Source: Prevotella sp. E15-22
Lineage (GTDB): Bacteria > Bacteroidota > Bacteroidia > Bacteroidales > Bacteroidaceae
NCBI RefSeq assembly: GCF_023204875.1
Contig: NZ_CP096247.1
Location: forward strand, 1,054,001 to 1,118,000
DNA: 64,000 nt
Direction: 5' to 3'
Positions 6,893 to 12,145 of this stretch are shown one piece after another. The notes beneath the pieces are model-generated. The model was not told the DNA's origin and did no database searches. It worked only from the letters and a program-made list of their open reading frames with translations. A program made the position numbers and the translations under genes. Each line of letters opens with the position of its first letter. Within the stretch, counting starts at the first letter, position 1.

Positions 6893-7283
6893 GACCACGG
6901 ATGACTCGGATTGAACGGATAATCCGTATTATCCGTTAGATCCGTGTTCGTTTATTAATTGACCACGGATTGCTCGGATTTGACGGATTTTTTTTGTTAC
7001 AATTTATCCGTTATATCCGTTAGATCCGTGTTCGTTTATTAAATTGACCACGGATTGCTCGGATTTGACGGATTTTTTTCTCGTTACAATTTATCCGTTA
7101 GATCCGTGTTCGTTTATTAAATTGACCACGGATTGCTCGGATTTGACGGATTTTTTTCGTTACAATTTATCCGTTTTATCCGTTAGATTCGTGTTCGTTT
7201 ATTAATTGACCACGGATGACTCGGATTGAACGGATTTTTTTCTCGTTACAATTTATCCGTATTATCCGTTTAATCCGTGTTCG
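6893..7283. repeat. Family A palindromic repeat array, five copies
   Basis: Five tandem copies (about 6893-6949, 6961-7033, 7046-7111, 7124-7197, 7208-7282). Each begins GACCACGGAT, carries further CGGAT motifs, then ATCCGT motifs, and ends ATCCGTGTTCG, so each can fold into one hairpin. Copies are joined by a spacer of the type TTTATTAATT. The last copy ends one base before the stop codon of the epimerase gene. Confidence 0.9.
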
Positions 7284-7284
7284 T

Positions 7285-8391
7285 TTAAAAATAGTATTGT
7301 TTGTACCACTCAGCGAAATGCCTTAATCCCTCTCTCAGCGTGATCTTGGGCGTGAAGCCATAATCGCGCTCAAGGGCGGTGGCATCGGCATAGGTGGTGG
7401 GGACATCACCGGGCTGCATGGGGACGAGTTGCTTGTGGGCCTCGAAATCAAAGTCCTGAGGCAGAACACCGGCACGAACGAGTTCCTCCTGCAGGATGGT
7501 GACAAAATCGAGCAGGTTCTCGGGCTGACCGCCACCGATGTTATACACAGCATAGGGTGGGATGGGGAGTCCGTCTTCGCCCTTCTTGCGCTCGGGAGCA
7601 CCCTGCATCACGCGCACGATGCCCTCAACGATGTCATCGACGTAAGTGAAGTCGCGACGGCAGTTGCCATAGTTGTAGATTTGGATGGTGTCACCCTTCA
7701 GCAGTTTGTTGGTGAAGCCGAAATAGGCCATGTCCGGACGACCGGCAGGACCATAGACGGTGAAGAAGCGCAAGCCGGTAGAGGGGATGTCGTAGAGCTT
7801 CGAGTAGCAGTGGGCCATGAGCTCGTTGCTCTTCTTAGTGGCGGCATAGAGTGACACGGGATTATCCACACGATCGTCGGTAGAGAAGGGCACCTTTTTG
7901 TTGCCGCCATAAACGCTGGAACTGGATGCATATACCAGATGCTCAACAGGGTGGTTGCGGCAGGCCTCCAAAATATTGTAGAAGCCAATGAGGTTGCTCT
8001 GGATATAGGCATCGGGATTGGTAATCGAATAGCGCACACCGGCCTGAGCGGCCAGGTTCACGACCACATCAAAGTGATAGTCGTCGAAGAGCTTGTCGAT
8101 GGTAGGCTTGTCGGAGATATCACCACGAACGAAGATCCATTTATTCGACCACGGATGACTCGGATTTAACGGATAATCCGTTTTATCTGTTAGATCCGTG
8201 GTCGCATTATTCTCCAGTTCCCGCAAACGGTACTCCTTGAGGGTGGGGTCGTAGTAATCATTCATGTTGTCGATGCCTACGATAGTGGCACCTGAAAGGT
8301 CGTTAAGCAGACGCTTAACAAGGTTGCTGCCGATGAAACCGGCTGCACCTGTAACCAGAATGGTTTTGTGGTTTAAATCAATTTTTTCCAT
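7285..8391 (-). CDS. UDP-glucuronate 4-epimerase-like NAD-dependent sugar epimerase
   Basis: About 368 residues. The N terminus has the NAD motif TGAAGFIGSNL; YAATKKSNE carries the SDR YxxxK pair and ASSSSVYGGN the catalytic Ser region. The sequence is of the CapI/LpsL type, which interconverts UDP-glucuronate and UDP-galacturonate. ATG 8391 is chosen because the protein then starts MEKIDLNHKTILVTG; a longer frame would enter the upstream repeat. A family A palindrome (8146-8204) is inserted in frame after LRELENN and adds about 20 residues (TTDLTDKTDYPLNPSHPWS) before KWIFVRGD. The active-site motifs are intact, so the insert is probably a tolerated surface loop. GDP- or other UDP-sugar specificity cannot be excluded. 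Confidence 0.85.
   Translation of the reverse strand: MEKIDLNHKTILVTGAAGFIGSNLVKRLLNDLSGATIVGIDNMNDYYDPTLKEYRLRELENNATTDLTDKTDYPLNPSHPWSNKWIFVRGDISDKPTIDKLFDDYHFDVVVNLAAQAGVRYSITNPDAYIQSNLIGFYNILEACRNHPVEHLVYASSSSVYGGNKKVPFSTDDRVDNPVSLYAATKKSNELMAHCYSKLYDIPSTGLRFFTVYGPAGRPDMAYFGFTNKLLKGDTIQIYNYGNCRRDFTYVDDIVEGIVRVMQGAPERKKGEDGLPIPPYAVYNIGGGQPENLLDFVTILQEELVRAGVLPQDFDFEAHKQLVPMQPGDVPTTYADATALERDYGFTPKITLREGLRHFAEWYKQYYF
8146..8204. repeat. Family A palindrome inside the epimerase gene
   Basis: CGACCACGGAT (8146-8156) and ATCCGTGGTCG (8194-8204) are perfect 11-base arms of a 59-base palindrome of the same type as the flanking arrays. It is translated in frame on the minus strand as TDLTDKTDYPLNPSHPWS. 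Confidence 0.9.
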
Positions 8392-8409: not shown

Positions 8410-8733
8410 GACCACGGATTGTTCGGATTGAACGGATTTTTTTCGTTACAATTTATCCGTGTTATCCGTTAGATCCGTGTTTGTTTATTAATTGACCACA
8501 GATGACTCGGATTTTACGGATTCTCACTGCTGCATTTTATCCGTTTTATCTGTTAGATCCGTGTTCGTTTATTAATTGACCACGGATTGTTCGGATTGAA
8601 CGGATTTTTTTTCGTTACAATTTATCCGTGTTATCTGTTAGATCCGTGTTCGTTTATTAATTGACCACGGATTGCTCGGATTTTACGGATTATTATTTTC
8701 AGTTTATCCGTGCTATCCGTTAGATCCGTGTTC
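8410..8733. repeat. Family A palindromic repeat array, four copies
   Basis: Copies at about 8410-8482, 8494-8566, 8578-8651 and 8663-8733 fill the gap between the epimerase start and the GxxExxY gene stop. No separate promoter is visible in the gap. Confidence 0.9.
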
Positions 8734-8736
8734 GCT

Positions 8737-9108
8737 TTATACAACTATACGTTCTTTCTCCAGTCCATCAGAACATCCGAAGTTGTAGAGTAAACCAAGC
8801 TTGTAGCCTGTGGCATGCAGGTAATTATAAACCTGAGATCTGTGACCATCATCTAATGCACTTACAGCCTTCAGTTCTACGATTATCTTCCCATAGCAGA
8901 CGAAATCTGCTTTATAAGTTTGTTTTAGCTCTACACCATCATACGTTATTTTCAATTCTTTCTCTCTTTCATACGGAATGCCACGACGTTGGAATTCTAT
9001 TTCCAATGCTTCTTGATATACTGCTTCAAGAAAGCCATGACCAAGCTTGTTGTAAACCTGGAACGCAGCTCCATTGATAGCATAACTTAGGTCGCTATAT
9101 AACAACAC
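8737..9108 (-). CDS. GxxExxY family protein
   Basis: About 123 residues. It has GAAFQVYNKLGHGFLEAVYQEAL, which contains the GxxExxY signature (GFLEAVY), then ADFVCYGKIIVELKA, a PD-(D/E)xK-like D...ExK core, and the typical C terminus LLYNFG...ERIVV. Members are small predicted nuclease-fold proteins of unknown function, common in Bacteroidetes. The start is unclear: GTG 9108 or TTG 9105 fit the usual N-terminal length, and there is no ATG. Family A arrays flank both ends, with one ending three bases from its stop codon. The ORF is otherwise intact. Confidence 0.8.
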   Translation of the reverse strand: MLLYSDLSYAINGAAFQVYNKLGHGFLEAVYQEALEIEFQRRGIPYEREKELKITYDGVELKQTYKADFVCYGKIIVELKAVSALDDGHRSQVYNYLHATGYKLGLLYNFGCSDGLEKERIVV

Positions 9109-9129
9109 TGTTTTTTCTTTTTATTAATT

Positions 9130-9490
9130 GACCACAGATAACTCGGATTGTACGGATTATCTGTTTTATCCGTTAGATCCGTGTTCGCTTATTAAATTGA
9201 CCACAGATAACTCGGATTGTACGGATGATTATATCCGTTTTATCCGTTAAATCCGTGTTCGCTTATTAAATTGACCACGGATAACTCGGATTGTACGGAT
9301 CATCCGTTTTATCCGTTAGATCCGTGTTCGTTTATTAAATTGACCACAGATAACTCGGATTGTACGGATGATTATATCCGTTATATCCGTTAGATCCGTG
9401 TTCGTTTATTATATTGACCACGGATTGCTCGGATTGAACGGATTTTTTTTCGTTACAATTTATCCGTTATATCCGTTAAATCCGTGTTCG
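9130..9490. repeat. Family A palindromic repeat array, five copies
   Basis: Copies at about 9130-9186, 9199-9260, 9273-9330, 9342-9403 and 9416-9490. The last base of the array directly abuts the TAA of the GHMP kinase (9491-9493, minus strand). Some copies carry CACAGATAACTCGG instead of CACGGATTGCTCGG. Confidence 0.9.
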
Positions 9491-10699
9491 TTAAACGAAT
9501 CGGGCTCCGTCGTCTGGACGGACCCAGAAGACCTTGAAGGTCTTTTCGTATTCAGGGAACTGGGCGAGATAGCGCTCTGTGAGGGCTTTTTCGATTTCTG
9601 CTTTGTGGGCAGGATCGACTAAGGCGATGCAGGCGCCTTTGAAGCCGGCACCAGAGAAGCGACCGCCATAGACGCCGGGGAGGGAGCGCATGATTTCGTA
9701 GATGGCGATGAGCTCGGGCGAGCCACACTCGTAGTTGTGGATACTCGACTCACAGCTGTCGAACGAGAGTTTTCCGAAGAGTTTGAGGTTGCCCGTCTCC
9801 CAAGCTGTTACACCCTGGCGCACACGACGATACTCGCTATAAAAATGCTCTGCACGACGGGCAAAACGGGCGGGCATGGCAATACGGGTCTTGTCGAAGG
9901 TGGCCTTGGGGATATCGCGCAGGAAGGTCTTGTCGAACGTCTTGAGCGGCTGTTCGGTATAGGCCAGCATATTCCATGCGGCCGTCTTACACTCGTACAC
10001 ACGCAGATTGTAATCACTGTTGACAAGTGAACGTGTGAGGCCACTGAAGAAAATGCCAATCTCGAAGGGGATTGTTGAACACGGATGACTCGGATTGGAC
10101 GGATGATCCGTTTTATCCGAAAGATCTGTGTTCGTTTCTTTTTCGACCACGGATGAACCAAAAGGTATCAGTCGGTATTCGTTAGAATCGCAGTCTAAGA
10201 ATAAGAGTTGGTCCTTTTTGCTCAGGGCGATGCAGGCCTGATCGAGCAGACCGTTGTTGAGTCCGATATATTCGCGCTCGGCCTCGGAAGCAATTTTTAC
10301 TACCTCGAAGGGCTGAAGGGTGATATTATTCGCCTTGGCAAACGCCATCACGTAGGCAATTAATACCGCTGCTGAAGATGAGAGTCCACCTACAGGCAGT
10401 GAGCCCTGGATAACACCCGTGATGCCTCGCGTGAGTTCGAAGCGCTTCTTGAGGGCGTACTTGGCACCTCGGGCATAGTCGCCCCAATGGCGCTCGCGTA
10501 CCTGAGAGGGGGCGTCAATATCGAAATCTACGACTCCCTCGAAAGTCTTACTCTCGAGGTGGACATGACCATCCTCGGCAACATCGAACCACAGGTCGAC
10601 ACCCTTGTTGATGGCAAAACCCGTGACCAGACCATGCTGGTGGTCAACATGAGCGCCCAAGGGACATACGCGATAGGGCGAGAAAATGTGATACTGCAT
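9491..10699 (-). CDS. GHMP sugar kinase, galactokinase / galacturonokinase-like
   Basis: 402 residues. It has GGLSSSAAV, the GHMP phosphate-binding loop, and the C-terminal motif GGRFSGAGFKGACIAL. The N-terminal sugar motif reads SPYRVCPLGAHVDHQHG rather than the GRVNLIGEHTDY of ordinary galactokinase; this form resembles plant galacturonokinase as I remember it. The likely reaction is ATP-dependent 1-phosphorylation of galactose or galacturonate. It starts with ATG 10699, downstream of a minus-strand -7 box at 10723-10731. A family A palindrome (10077-10133) adds a peptide around NTDLSDKTDHPSNPSHPCS before IPFEIGIFFSG. Neighbours (UDP-GlcA epimerase, nucleotidyltransferase) fit uronic-acid salvage. 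The kinase fold is certain; the substrate is inferred. Confidence 0.8.
   Translation of the reverse strand: MQYHIFSPYRVCPLGAHVDHQHGLVTGFAINKGVDLWFDVAEDGHVHLESKTFEGVVDFDIDAPSQVRERHWGDYARGAKYALKKRFELTRGITGVIQGSLPVGGLSSSAAVLIAYVMAFAKANNITLQPFEVVKIASEAEREYIGLNNGLLDQACIALSKKDQLLFLDCDSNEYRLIPFGSSVVEKETNTDLSDKTDHPSNPSHPCSTIPFEIGIFFSGLTRSLVNSDYNLRVYECKTAAWNMLAYTEQPLKTFDKTFLRDIPKATFDKTRIAMPARFARRAEHFYSEYRRVRQGVTAWETGNLKLFGKLSFDSCESSIHNYECGSPELIAIYEIMRSLPGVYGGRFSGAGFKGACIALVDPAHKAEIEKALTERYLAQFPEYEKTFKVFWVRPDDGARFV
10077..10154. repeat. Family A palindrome inside the sugar kinase gene
   Basis: GAACACGGAT (10077-10086) pairs with ATCTGTGTTC (10124-10133). A second partial arm (GACCACGGATG, about 10145-10155) follows. 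The whole is read in frame on the minus strand and gives SSVVEKETNTDLSDKTDH and onward. Confidence 0.9.
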
Positions 10700-10813: not shown

Positions 10814-10830
10814 AGCGCGTTTTGTTTAAC

Positions 10831-10892
10831 GAACACGGATTTGACGGATATAACGGATATAATAATCCGTGCAATCCGAGTTATCCGTGGTC
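10831..10892. repeat. Family A palindrome in the 5' leader
   Basis: GAACACGGAT opens and ATCCGTGGTC closes this copy, between the promoter and start codon of the nucleotidyltransferase gene. It would form a hairpin in the mRNA leader ending about 20 bases before the ATG. Confidence 0.85.
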
Positions 10893-10912: not shown

Positions 10913-11713
10913 ATGAAATGTGTTGTAATAGCGGCAGGATATGCCACGAGGCTGGGGGAGTTGACAAAGAATTTCCCAAAGCCATTGTTGAAGATAGGTG
11001 AGAACACGATTCTGGGTAGGATGCTCGATGATATCGATAAGATTCCGGAGATTGATGAGCATATCATTATCACTAACCACAAATTCGCTCATATCTTCGA
11101 GGAATGGGTTAAAACGACTACGGATGGAGATATAAAAACGAACACGGATCTAACGGATATAACGGATTATCCGTCAAATCCGTGTTCAAAATATAAGAAA
11201 CCGATTACAGTGGTTGATGATGGTACTGAGACCAACGACACCCGCCTTGGTGCTGTGTGCGACCTGTTGTTTGCGATGGACAAGCTCCAGATTGATGATG
11301 ATTTGCTGGTGGTGGCAGCGGATAACTTGCTGTTCTTCTCGTTCCAGGAGTTCGTGGACTTTGCGAAGGCCAAGGGGACATCGTGCATTATGTGCCATGA
11401 GCAGCCTTCGATAGAGAAATTGCAAAGGACGGGAGTCGTGGAACTCGATGACAATAATAAGGTGTTGGGTATGGAGGAGAAGCCCCAGGTGCCGAAGAGT
11501 CATTGGGCTGTGCCGCCGTTCTATATCTATCTGAAGAAGGATCTGGACCTTGTTCGCCACTCGGTAGAGAATGGGTGTGGGAAGGATGCGCCTGGTAACC
11601 TTGCCCATTACATGGTGGAGCACACCACCATGCACGCTTGGCCCATGTCCGCCGGAAGATTTGACATCGGAAGTCTTGATACTTATTACGAGGCGGTGGA
11701 GAAGTACGGATAA
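10913..11713 (+). CDS. Sugar-phosphate nucleotidyltransferase
   Basis: 266 residues. It starts MKCVVIAAGYATRLGELTKN, the GxGTR-like nucleotide loop (here AAGYATRL) of NTP transferases, followed by FPKPLLKIG; the metal-binding region is VVAADNLLF. The enzyme should join a sugar 1-phosphate to a nucleotide. Divergence from the GHMP kinase and closeness to the epimerase suggest it makes a UDP-sugar from the kinase product. A family A palindrome (11140-11187) is inserted in frame after WVKTTTDGDIK and adds 16 residues (NTDLTDITDYPSNPCS). The stop codon TAA is itself part of a half copy of the repeat (11705-11741). The sugar is not predictable from the sequence. Confidence 0.85.
   Translation: MKCVVIAAGYATRLGELTKNFPKPLLKIGENTILGRMLDDIDKIPEIDEHIIITNHKFAHIFEEWVKTTTDGDIKTNTDLTDITDYPSNPCSKYKKPITVVDDGTETNDTRLGAVCDLLFAMDKLQIDDDLLVVAADNLLFFSFQEFVDFAKAKGTSCIMCHEQPSIEKLQRTGVVELDDNNKVLGMEEKPQVPKSHWAVPPFYIYLKKDLDLVRHSVENGCGKDAPGNLAHYMVEHTTMHAWPMSAGRFDIGSLDTYYEAVEKYG
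11140..11187. repeat. Family A palindrome inside the nucleotidyltransferase gene
   Basis: GAACACGGAT (11140-11149) and ATCCGTGTTC (11178-11187) are perfect 10-base arms of a 48-base palindrome, exactly 16 codons, read in the same peptide frame as the copies in the two minus-strand genes. Confidence 0.9.
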
Positions 11714-11810
11714 TCCGTTATATCCGTTAGATCCGTGTTCGCTTATTAAATTGACCACGGATGACTCGGATTGAACGGATTATCCGTATTATCCGTTAGA
11801 TCCGTGTTCG
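11705..11810. repeat. Family A half copy plus full copy
   Basis: A half element (about 11705-11741) supplies the stop codon of the upstream gene; a full copy follows at 11753-11810, joined by the usual AT-rich spacer. Confidence 0.85.
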
Positions 11811-12040: not shown

Positions 12041-12145
12041 CGCGGATAATCCGTTATATCCGTTAAATCCGTGTTCGTTTATTAAATTGACCACGGATGA
12101 CTCGGATTGAACGGATTATCCGTATTATCCGTTAGATCCGTGTTC
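12041..12145. repeat. Family A half copy plus full copy
   Basis: Half copy at about 12041-12075, full copy at 12089-12145. The full copy ends three bases before the TAA of the flavodiiron gene (minus strand), and the arrangement repeats that of 11705-11810. Confidence 0.85.

Follow-up and report, generated by a model that had tools for sequence, protein, structure and literature searches.

The window analysed here is a stretch of 64,000 nucleotides from the genome of Prevotella sp. E15-22, a single contig of 3.335 Mb. It contains genes for a nucleotidyltransferase, a galactokinase and an NAD-dependent epimerase/dehydratase, all of which match their respective Pfam families and carry a short palindromic element in frame. 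Between the last two lies a gene of the GxxExxY family, with arrays of the element on either side. The features of the locus are as follows:

10913..11713, plus strand: nucleotidyltransferase gene (PF00483), a host gene with a Pfam match and an intact ORF
11140..11187, plus strand: palindromic element of the preliminary description, GAACACGGATCTAACGGATATAACGGATTATCCGTCAAATCCGTGTTC, in frame in the nucleotidyltransferase gene, its second arm one 9-bp unit below the usual three
11117..11125, plus strand: ACTACGGAT, in frame, judged from its sequence a possible remnant of a neighbouring arm
10830..10892, plus strand: element upstream of the nucleotidyltransferase gene (motif clusters, arm typing)
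11705..11809, minus strand: partial and full element, the former overlapping the nucleotidyltransferase stop codon at 11705-11744 (TACGGATAA)
12041..12145, minus strand: one partial and one full element, located where the next gene ends (sequence, motif clusters)
9491..10699, minus strand: galactokinase gene galK (GHMP kinase), a host gene (Pfam/NCBIfam matches)
10077..10133, minus strand: in-frame element in galK, NTDLSDKTDHPSNPSHPCS (ORF translation, motif clusters)
9121..9489, minus strand: element array from galK to the GxxExxY gene (motif clusters, periodicity)
8737..9108, minus strand: GxxExxY protein gene (PF13366, TIGR04256; Pfam/NCBIfam), PD-(D/E)XK superfamily, the proposed gene of the mobile unit
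8411..8736, minus strand: element array from the GxxExxY gene to the epimerase gene (motif clusters, periodicity)
7285..8391, minus strand: NAD-dependent epimerase/dehydratase gene, a host gene (Pfam/NCBIfam matches)
8147..8203, minus strand: in-frame element in the epimerase gene, TTDLTDKTDYPLNPSHPWS (ORF translation, motif clusters)
6894..7284, minus strand: element array behind the epimerase gene (motif clusters, periodicity)

The preliminary description was correct in placing a 48-base in-frame element in a plus-strand gene, where it is read as NTDLTDITDYPSNPCS. The hairpin has an energy of -25.5 kcal/mol, compared with -7.9 +/- 2.1 kcal/mol in dinucleotide shuffles, none of which folded as well (0/200; z -8.25). 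The arms, however, are not perfect, as had been stated, since the stem consists of 10 bp and 7 bp with a 3x3 mismatch between them, around a loop of 8 nt. An arm generally comprises about three 9-bp units, NNNACGGAT, with GAACACGGAT or GACCACGGAT at the tip, and the spacers are not alike between left and right arms. The nucleotidyltransferase is 83-94% identical to 29 aligned orthologues, and the insert falls between a predicted helix (56-70) and a predicted strand (98-102) in one weak structure model (mean pLDDT 53.7), which was consulted for the position of the loop alone.

A fourth full coding copy is present in a 637-aa ORF at 1.83 Mb (locus L004). It had been suggested that the element yields the same peptide type from either orientation; instead, elements are inverted together with their host genes, and the arm order is constant in the epimerase, galK and L004 genes, all on the minus strand, with the CTA/CTT-spaced arm first and the GAC-TCGGAT-spaced arm second. 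The script typed two of the four full coding copies (epimerase and L004), while galK and the copy at 11140-11187 were typed by eye, the latter with less certainty because its second arm is short by one unit.

Genomic distribution and reading frame

The genome holds 62 matches to the arm (at most two mismatches), against two with the reversed pattern. Of these, 52 lie at 1034895-1066141 (31 kb), including 40 at 1060897-1066141 (5 kb), a stretch that spans the GxxExxY gene, and the remaining ten are found at 0.97, 1.14, 1.83, 2.11 and 2.82 Mb. The element family is clustered round the GxxExxY gene, and the window contains 22 motif clusters, many of them as tandem arrays with a period of 74-86 bp or double that. 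In the stretches fetched for this count, 171 arm pairs or single arms were found, against two in the reversed sequences. Outside the sugar-gene cluster, elements share blocks with ORFs of the VapE/BT4734, HU-like and amidase-like types (L001 14871-18981, L004 8503-9295, L005 9822-10227), the L005 copy resembling an incomplete duplication of the block in L001.

Three independent insertions in three adjacent genes had been proposed. The three in-frame copies stand, but the GxxExxY gene and the arrays separate the epimerase gene from galK, and independence cannot simply be assumed, because all three copies are within 2.1 kb of that gene or of the arrays. With respect to orientation, copies of this genome are mostly sense to both neighbouring genes (17/21 typed); in a relative, G006, tandem gene pairs gave 4 vs 4, with 12 untyped, and divergent gaps 0/20 typed copies. 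Sense orientation as a rule was consequently rejected, as the copies of this genome form tandem arrays and the tandem pairs of G006 are split 4 + 4.

Elements and single arms were counted in stretches picked round matches and assigned as coding by a simple codon-score gene finder. In E15-22, 7 of 42 lie in genes, 5 at gene edges and 30 between genes; the corresponding numbers are 16, 10 and 40 of 66 in the loci of its kin, and 0, 1 and 62 of 63 elements in G006. Many of the G006 hairpins (L094-L142), which are of the ACGGAT type, enclose a central second palindrome (AAGT..ATG..CAT..ACTT type), as if nested. Among the coding elements and arms of E15-22 and its kin, 19/23 use the ACG-GAT frame, read as Thr-Asp or Thr-Asn, although not all are independent, since some of the 19 are at shared sites (L013, L015) and three are tandem arms inside a single gene (L020). 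The four exceptions are a lone arm inside an L001 ORF with a VapE domain, one L016 copy, a single arm in L022 and the L019 row, which is doubtful (its ORF runs past the contig end) yet counted among the 23. Neither random frames nor hosts that are mostly pseudogenes were found, the three host genes of the window matching their Pfam families.

The preliminary description suggested selection for this frame or for the element's design. A reading of this kind is that frame and peptide are under selection, with a function conferred on the proteins by their inserts. Besides the 19/23, it is favoured by the fact that the used frame is open in 20/38 reads of the intergenic copies of this genome, compared with 11.2 in shuffles. 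Read left to right, however, these copies have the used frame open in 12/19 and the other two in just 1 and 2, so that survival alone yields a bias (right to left, the frames are open in 8, 10 and 6). For the copy at 11140-11187, it was rightly pointed out that a shifted frame meets TAA. In G006, where the used frame is open in 2/62 reads vs 11.2 in shuffles, no element is found in a gene. The shared frame is therefore largely a stop-codon filter, and selection for the frame or for the element's design is not needed to explain it. Moreover, the coding copies are not independent, insert length and sequence vary among near-identical homologues (P0010 retains almost none), and the insert is absent in most of the orthologues looked at. 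Functional selection is consequently improbable, and most of the bias is explained by survival without a stop codon.

The GxxExxY gene and its inverted flanks

The PD-(D/E)XK assignment of GxxExxY proteins is the Pfam name, and a nuclease role is predicted from it. The family is present in 39/60 genomes of the genus, and no match to it was found in the phage records searched. Inverted flanks (score of at least 12) were detected for 28/49 GxxExxY genes, 21/38 when kin loci are set aside, and were not detectable for the other 21/49; the count omits L152, which repeats the copy in the window and whose removal took the total from 50 to 49, as well as copies without 150-bp flanks. Among controls, they were found in 16/817 genes and in 13/325 well-spaced genes (p 2e-19), and in 4% of mismatched pairs. 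Predicted ORFs in the fetched loci served as controls because cold-shock genes were matched in only 1/30 genomes. GxxExxY genes are, in general, associated with inverted repeats in their flanks.

The arrangement of these flanks varies. In L008 and L018, whose GxxExxY proteins are 93% identical to that of the window, a left arm ends at the ATG and a whole element follows the gene; in L012, L063 and L016 (90, 93 and 80% identical), there are whole elements on both sides, and the L063 copy has like arms in a different place. Taking these five loci and the window together, GxxExxY has whole elements on both sides, or a left arm on one side and a whole element on the other, and in none of the six is it neatly enclosed by one left and one right arm. 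Single arms also end exactly at the start codon (ACGGATATG or ACGAATG) of nucleotidyltransferase or GxxExxY genes (L013 8633, L027 8980, L042 8980, L066 8978, L008 8395, L018 8461).

Arm families differ widely, and likeness between arms is mostly limited to GxxExxY proteins that share 75% identity or more, in a set of pairs where one locus is duplicated. The three in-frame inserts of the window fit the arms beside the window GxxExxY gene better than those of nine other loci, and the L016 insert likewise best fits the arms beside its own GxxExxY gene, both its flanking elements and the insert being of the ACGAAT type. The E15-22 genome has a second GxxExxY gene, which stands within an array built from another repeat; 10/13 of the genomic matches to that repeat fall within 1.3 kb. 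The flanks of the three GxxExxY genes of G006 differ from the ACGGAT hairpins present there. In kin loci, the correlation between inserts and a nearby GxxExxY gene is weak (6/29 vs 3/51, p 0.065).

A clean two-arm arrangement is seen in G051, in which a 481-bp unit consists of GxxExxY between perfect 26-bp arms, the right arm containing the stop codon of the gene. This arm has 21 matches, which correspond to the unit itself, eight gene-less pairs (72-99 bp, 0-3 mismatches) and three single arms, whereas the reversed-pattern control gave none. No consistent target duplication was seen at the nine G051 sites. The arms of G083 likewise have further copies in other places, with less regularity.

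GxxExxY is not the sole gene framed in this way, because S23/four-helix-bundle genes (PF05635), present in 51/60 genomes of the genus, show a like architecture: 26/30 of those examined (L189-L218) are flanked by inverted short-unit arrays, such as AGGAGTT, AGAGGTG or GACAAGTTGA.

The element at 11140-11187 is MITE-like in being short, with inverted ends and no transposase gene, and we consider it rather probable that it derives, as a gene-less palindrome, from a mobile unit with GxxExxY as its sole gene. According to this model, the left and right arms minus the gene would form the hairpin, and GxxExxY would act on arms or hairpins, leading to copying, mostly nearby, and hence to arrays. Copies in genes would persist in permissive loops where the frame has no stop, and the gain or loss of a unit would add or remove three residues with the frame kept, because the units are 9 bp long. 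That GxxExxY moves or acts on the element is, at this point, inferred.

Alternatively, palindromes could arise and spread otherwise (by slippage, recombination or an unrelated transposase), GxxExxY being a passenger that lodges in palindromic arrays. The existence of tandem arrays, the position of GxxExxY between whole elements in the window family, the like framing of four-helix genes and the G006 hairpins without a matching GxxExxY gene are all compatible with a passenger. Against it are the clean two-arm unit of G051 with its eight gene-less partners, and the observation that different arm families go with different GxxExxY genes, likeness being mainly confined to the closely related proteins described above. 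This alternative thus seems unlikely, if still to be taken seriously. A REP-type element mobilised by a RAYT (Y1) transposase is very improbable. There are two Y1_Tnp genes in the genome (L088, L089), 11 and 17 kb from two element clusters, and in both the NCBIfam RAYT match is below the cut-off. However, no arm is found in the 3.2-kb loci around either gene, and the element ends in GAAC/GTTC, without the GTAG or CGTC tag described at one end of REPs in the part of the source consulted (PMC3733652). RAYT was therefore rejected as the engine.

Loops with inserts in related loci

The kin loci were gathered via the nucleotidyltransferase and come from Prevotella, Xylanibacter, Prevotellaceae and Bacteroidales, many from rumen samples. 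In the window and the best 80 of 249 relatives' loci, a ranking that may favour like inserts, the nucleotidyltransferase, galK or the epimerase were found to contain 51 inserts with a minimum length of 10 residues, in 30/81 loci. A protein list (best 120 of 8000), biased to like inserts, was left out of the frame counts. The inserts occupy at least six loops, and the same loops are filled by unrelated repeats in other species. Several types have no sequence relationship to one another: ACGGAT, ACGAAT, a GACCTCA-like heptamer, GGAAATTTTGCAAAATT, and NSQLS- and SPCLGGE-type peptides; that of L082 is a long near-perfect inverted repeat. Folding stood out (z < -2) in 18/51 inserts, compared with 4/51 host segments, and the other 33/51 do not stand out.

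A single source for all in-frame inserts is unsupported. When the 51 inserts were compared with cassette and control flanks, 11 clearly fitted cassette flanks better, nine of them of the ACGGAT/ACGAAT type, and no in-frame family other than these two could be traced to GxxExxY or four-helix units. The mean match slightly favours control flanks (14.5, vs 13.5 for GxxExxY and 10.3 for four-helix flanks), which come from closer kin.

Known systems and significance

In genes, the element behaves like the Rickettsia palindromic elements (RPE), a likeness of behaviour rather than a class assignment. RPE, in the parts of the sources consulted, are palindromic, occur in frame in conserved protein genes and also between genes, and comprise several families of 105-146 bp (PMC2229807, PMC10969869). 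The Prevotella element shares the palindromic stem-loop, the in-frame position in intact conserved genes, a likeness to RPE that the preliminary description had drawn, and the intergenic copies. It differs in its host phylum (Bacteroidota), its length (48 bp at 11140-11187, 57 bp for the galK and epimerase copies), its arms of 9-bp units and its candidate gene partner.

Other systems share particular traits, as far as the portions of the sources consulted describe them. For instance, among the Correia/NEMIS elements of Neisseria, an open 107-bp form is fused to ORFs and a 155-bp form with stops is almost exclusively intergenic (PMC2229807), which parallels the open family of E15-22 and the closed one of G006; sequence and host differ, and no GxxExxY link is reported there for Neisseria MITEs. 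In 23S rRNA intervening sequences, a small gene for an S23/four-helix protein lies between complementary arms (PMC4990558), as do the PF05635 genes of the genus with inverted flanks; by contrast, the Prevotella element occurs within protein genes and in the gaps separating them, the copy at 11140-11187 being in a protein gene rather than a 23S rRNA helix, and the gene family is GxxExxY. BrickBuilt of Porphyromonas gingivalis, also from Bacteroidales, is likewise of MITE type with internal tandem units, but these are a 23-bp minisatellite with ISPg-like ends, and the part consulted does not mention 'in-frame' (PMC4596501). TAACTGA heptamers, repeats of a short unit that in most cases directly precede start codons and occur in five Bacteroidetes, among others (PMC4679880), recall the Prevotella half-arms that end at start codons, although they are direct repeats, with no GxxExxY or hairpin link in that part. 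In the open-access literature, apart from subscription journals and preprints, the titles and abstract openings of the matches listed contained neither a link between GxxExxY and palindromic repeats nor in-frame palindromes in Prevotella.

Overall, the original observation is partly confirmed and its interpretation partly supported, the GxxExxY unit being the best-supported origin. A broader proposal, which we regard as quite possible but tentative, is that widespread minimal mobile units, delimited by inverted arrays with a unit length of 7-10 bp, are marked by GxxExxY genes and, as a separate case, by S23/four-helix-bundle genes. Their gene-less hairpins, together with further short repeats, would insert time and again into the same permissive loops of conserved rumen Prevotella enzymes, so that protein length continues to change in frame. 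In-frame palindromes are best known from Rickettsia, where the parts of the sources consulted name no engine; rumen bacteria would be a second rich system, with a candidate enzyme. If true, this would provide a function for GxxExxY, a family named by its motif only, and would connect with the unsolved question of where 23S intervening sequences originate, while the way in which unrelated repeats have come to occupy the same loops again and again would amount to a natural experiment on protein tolerance.
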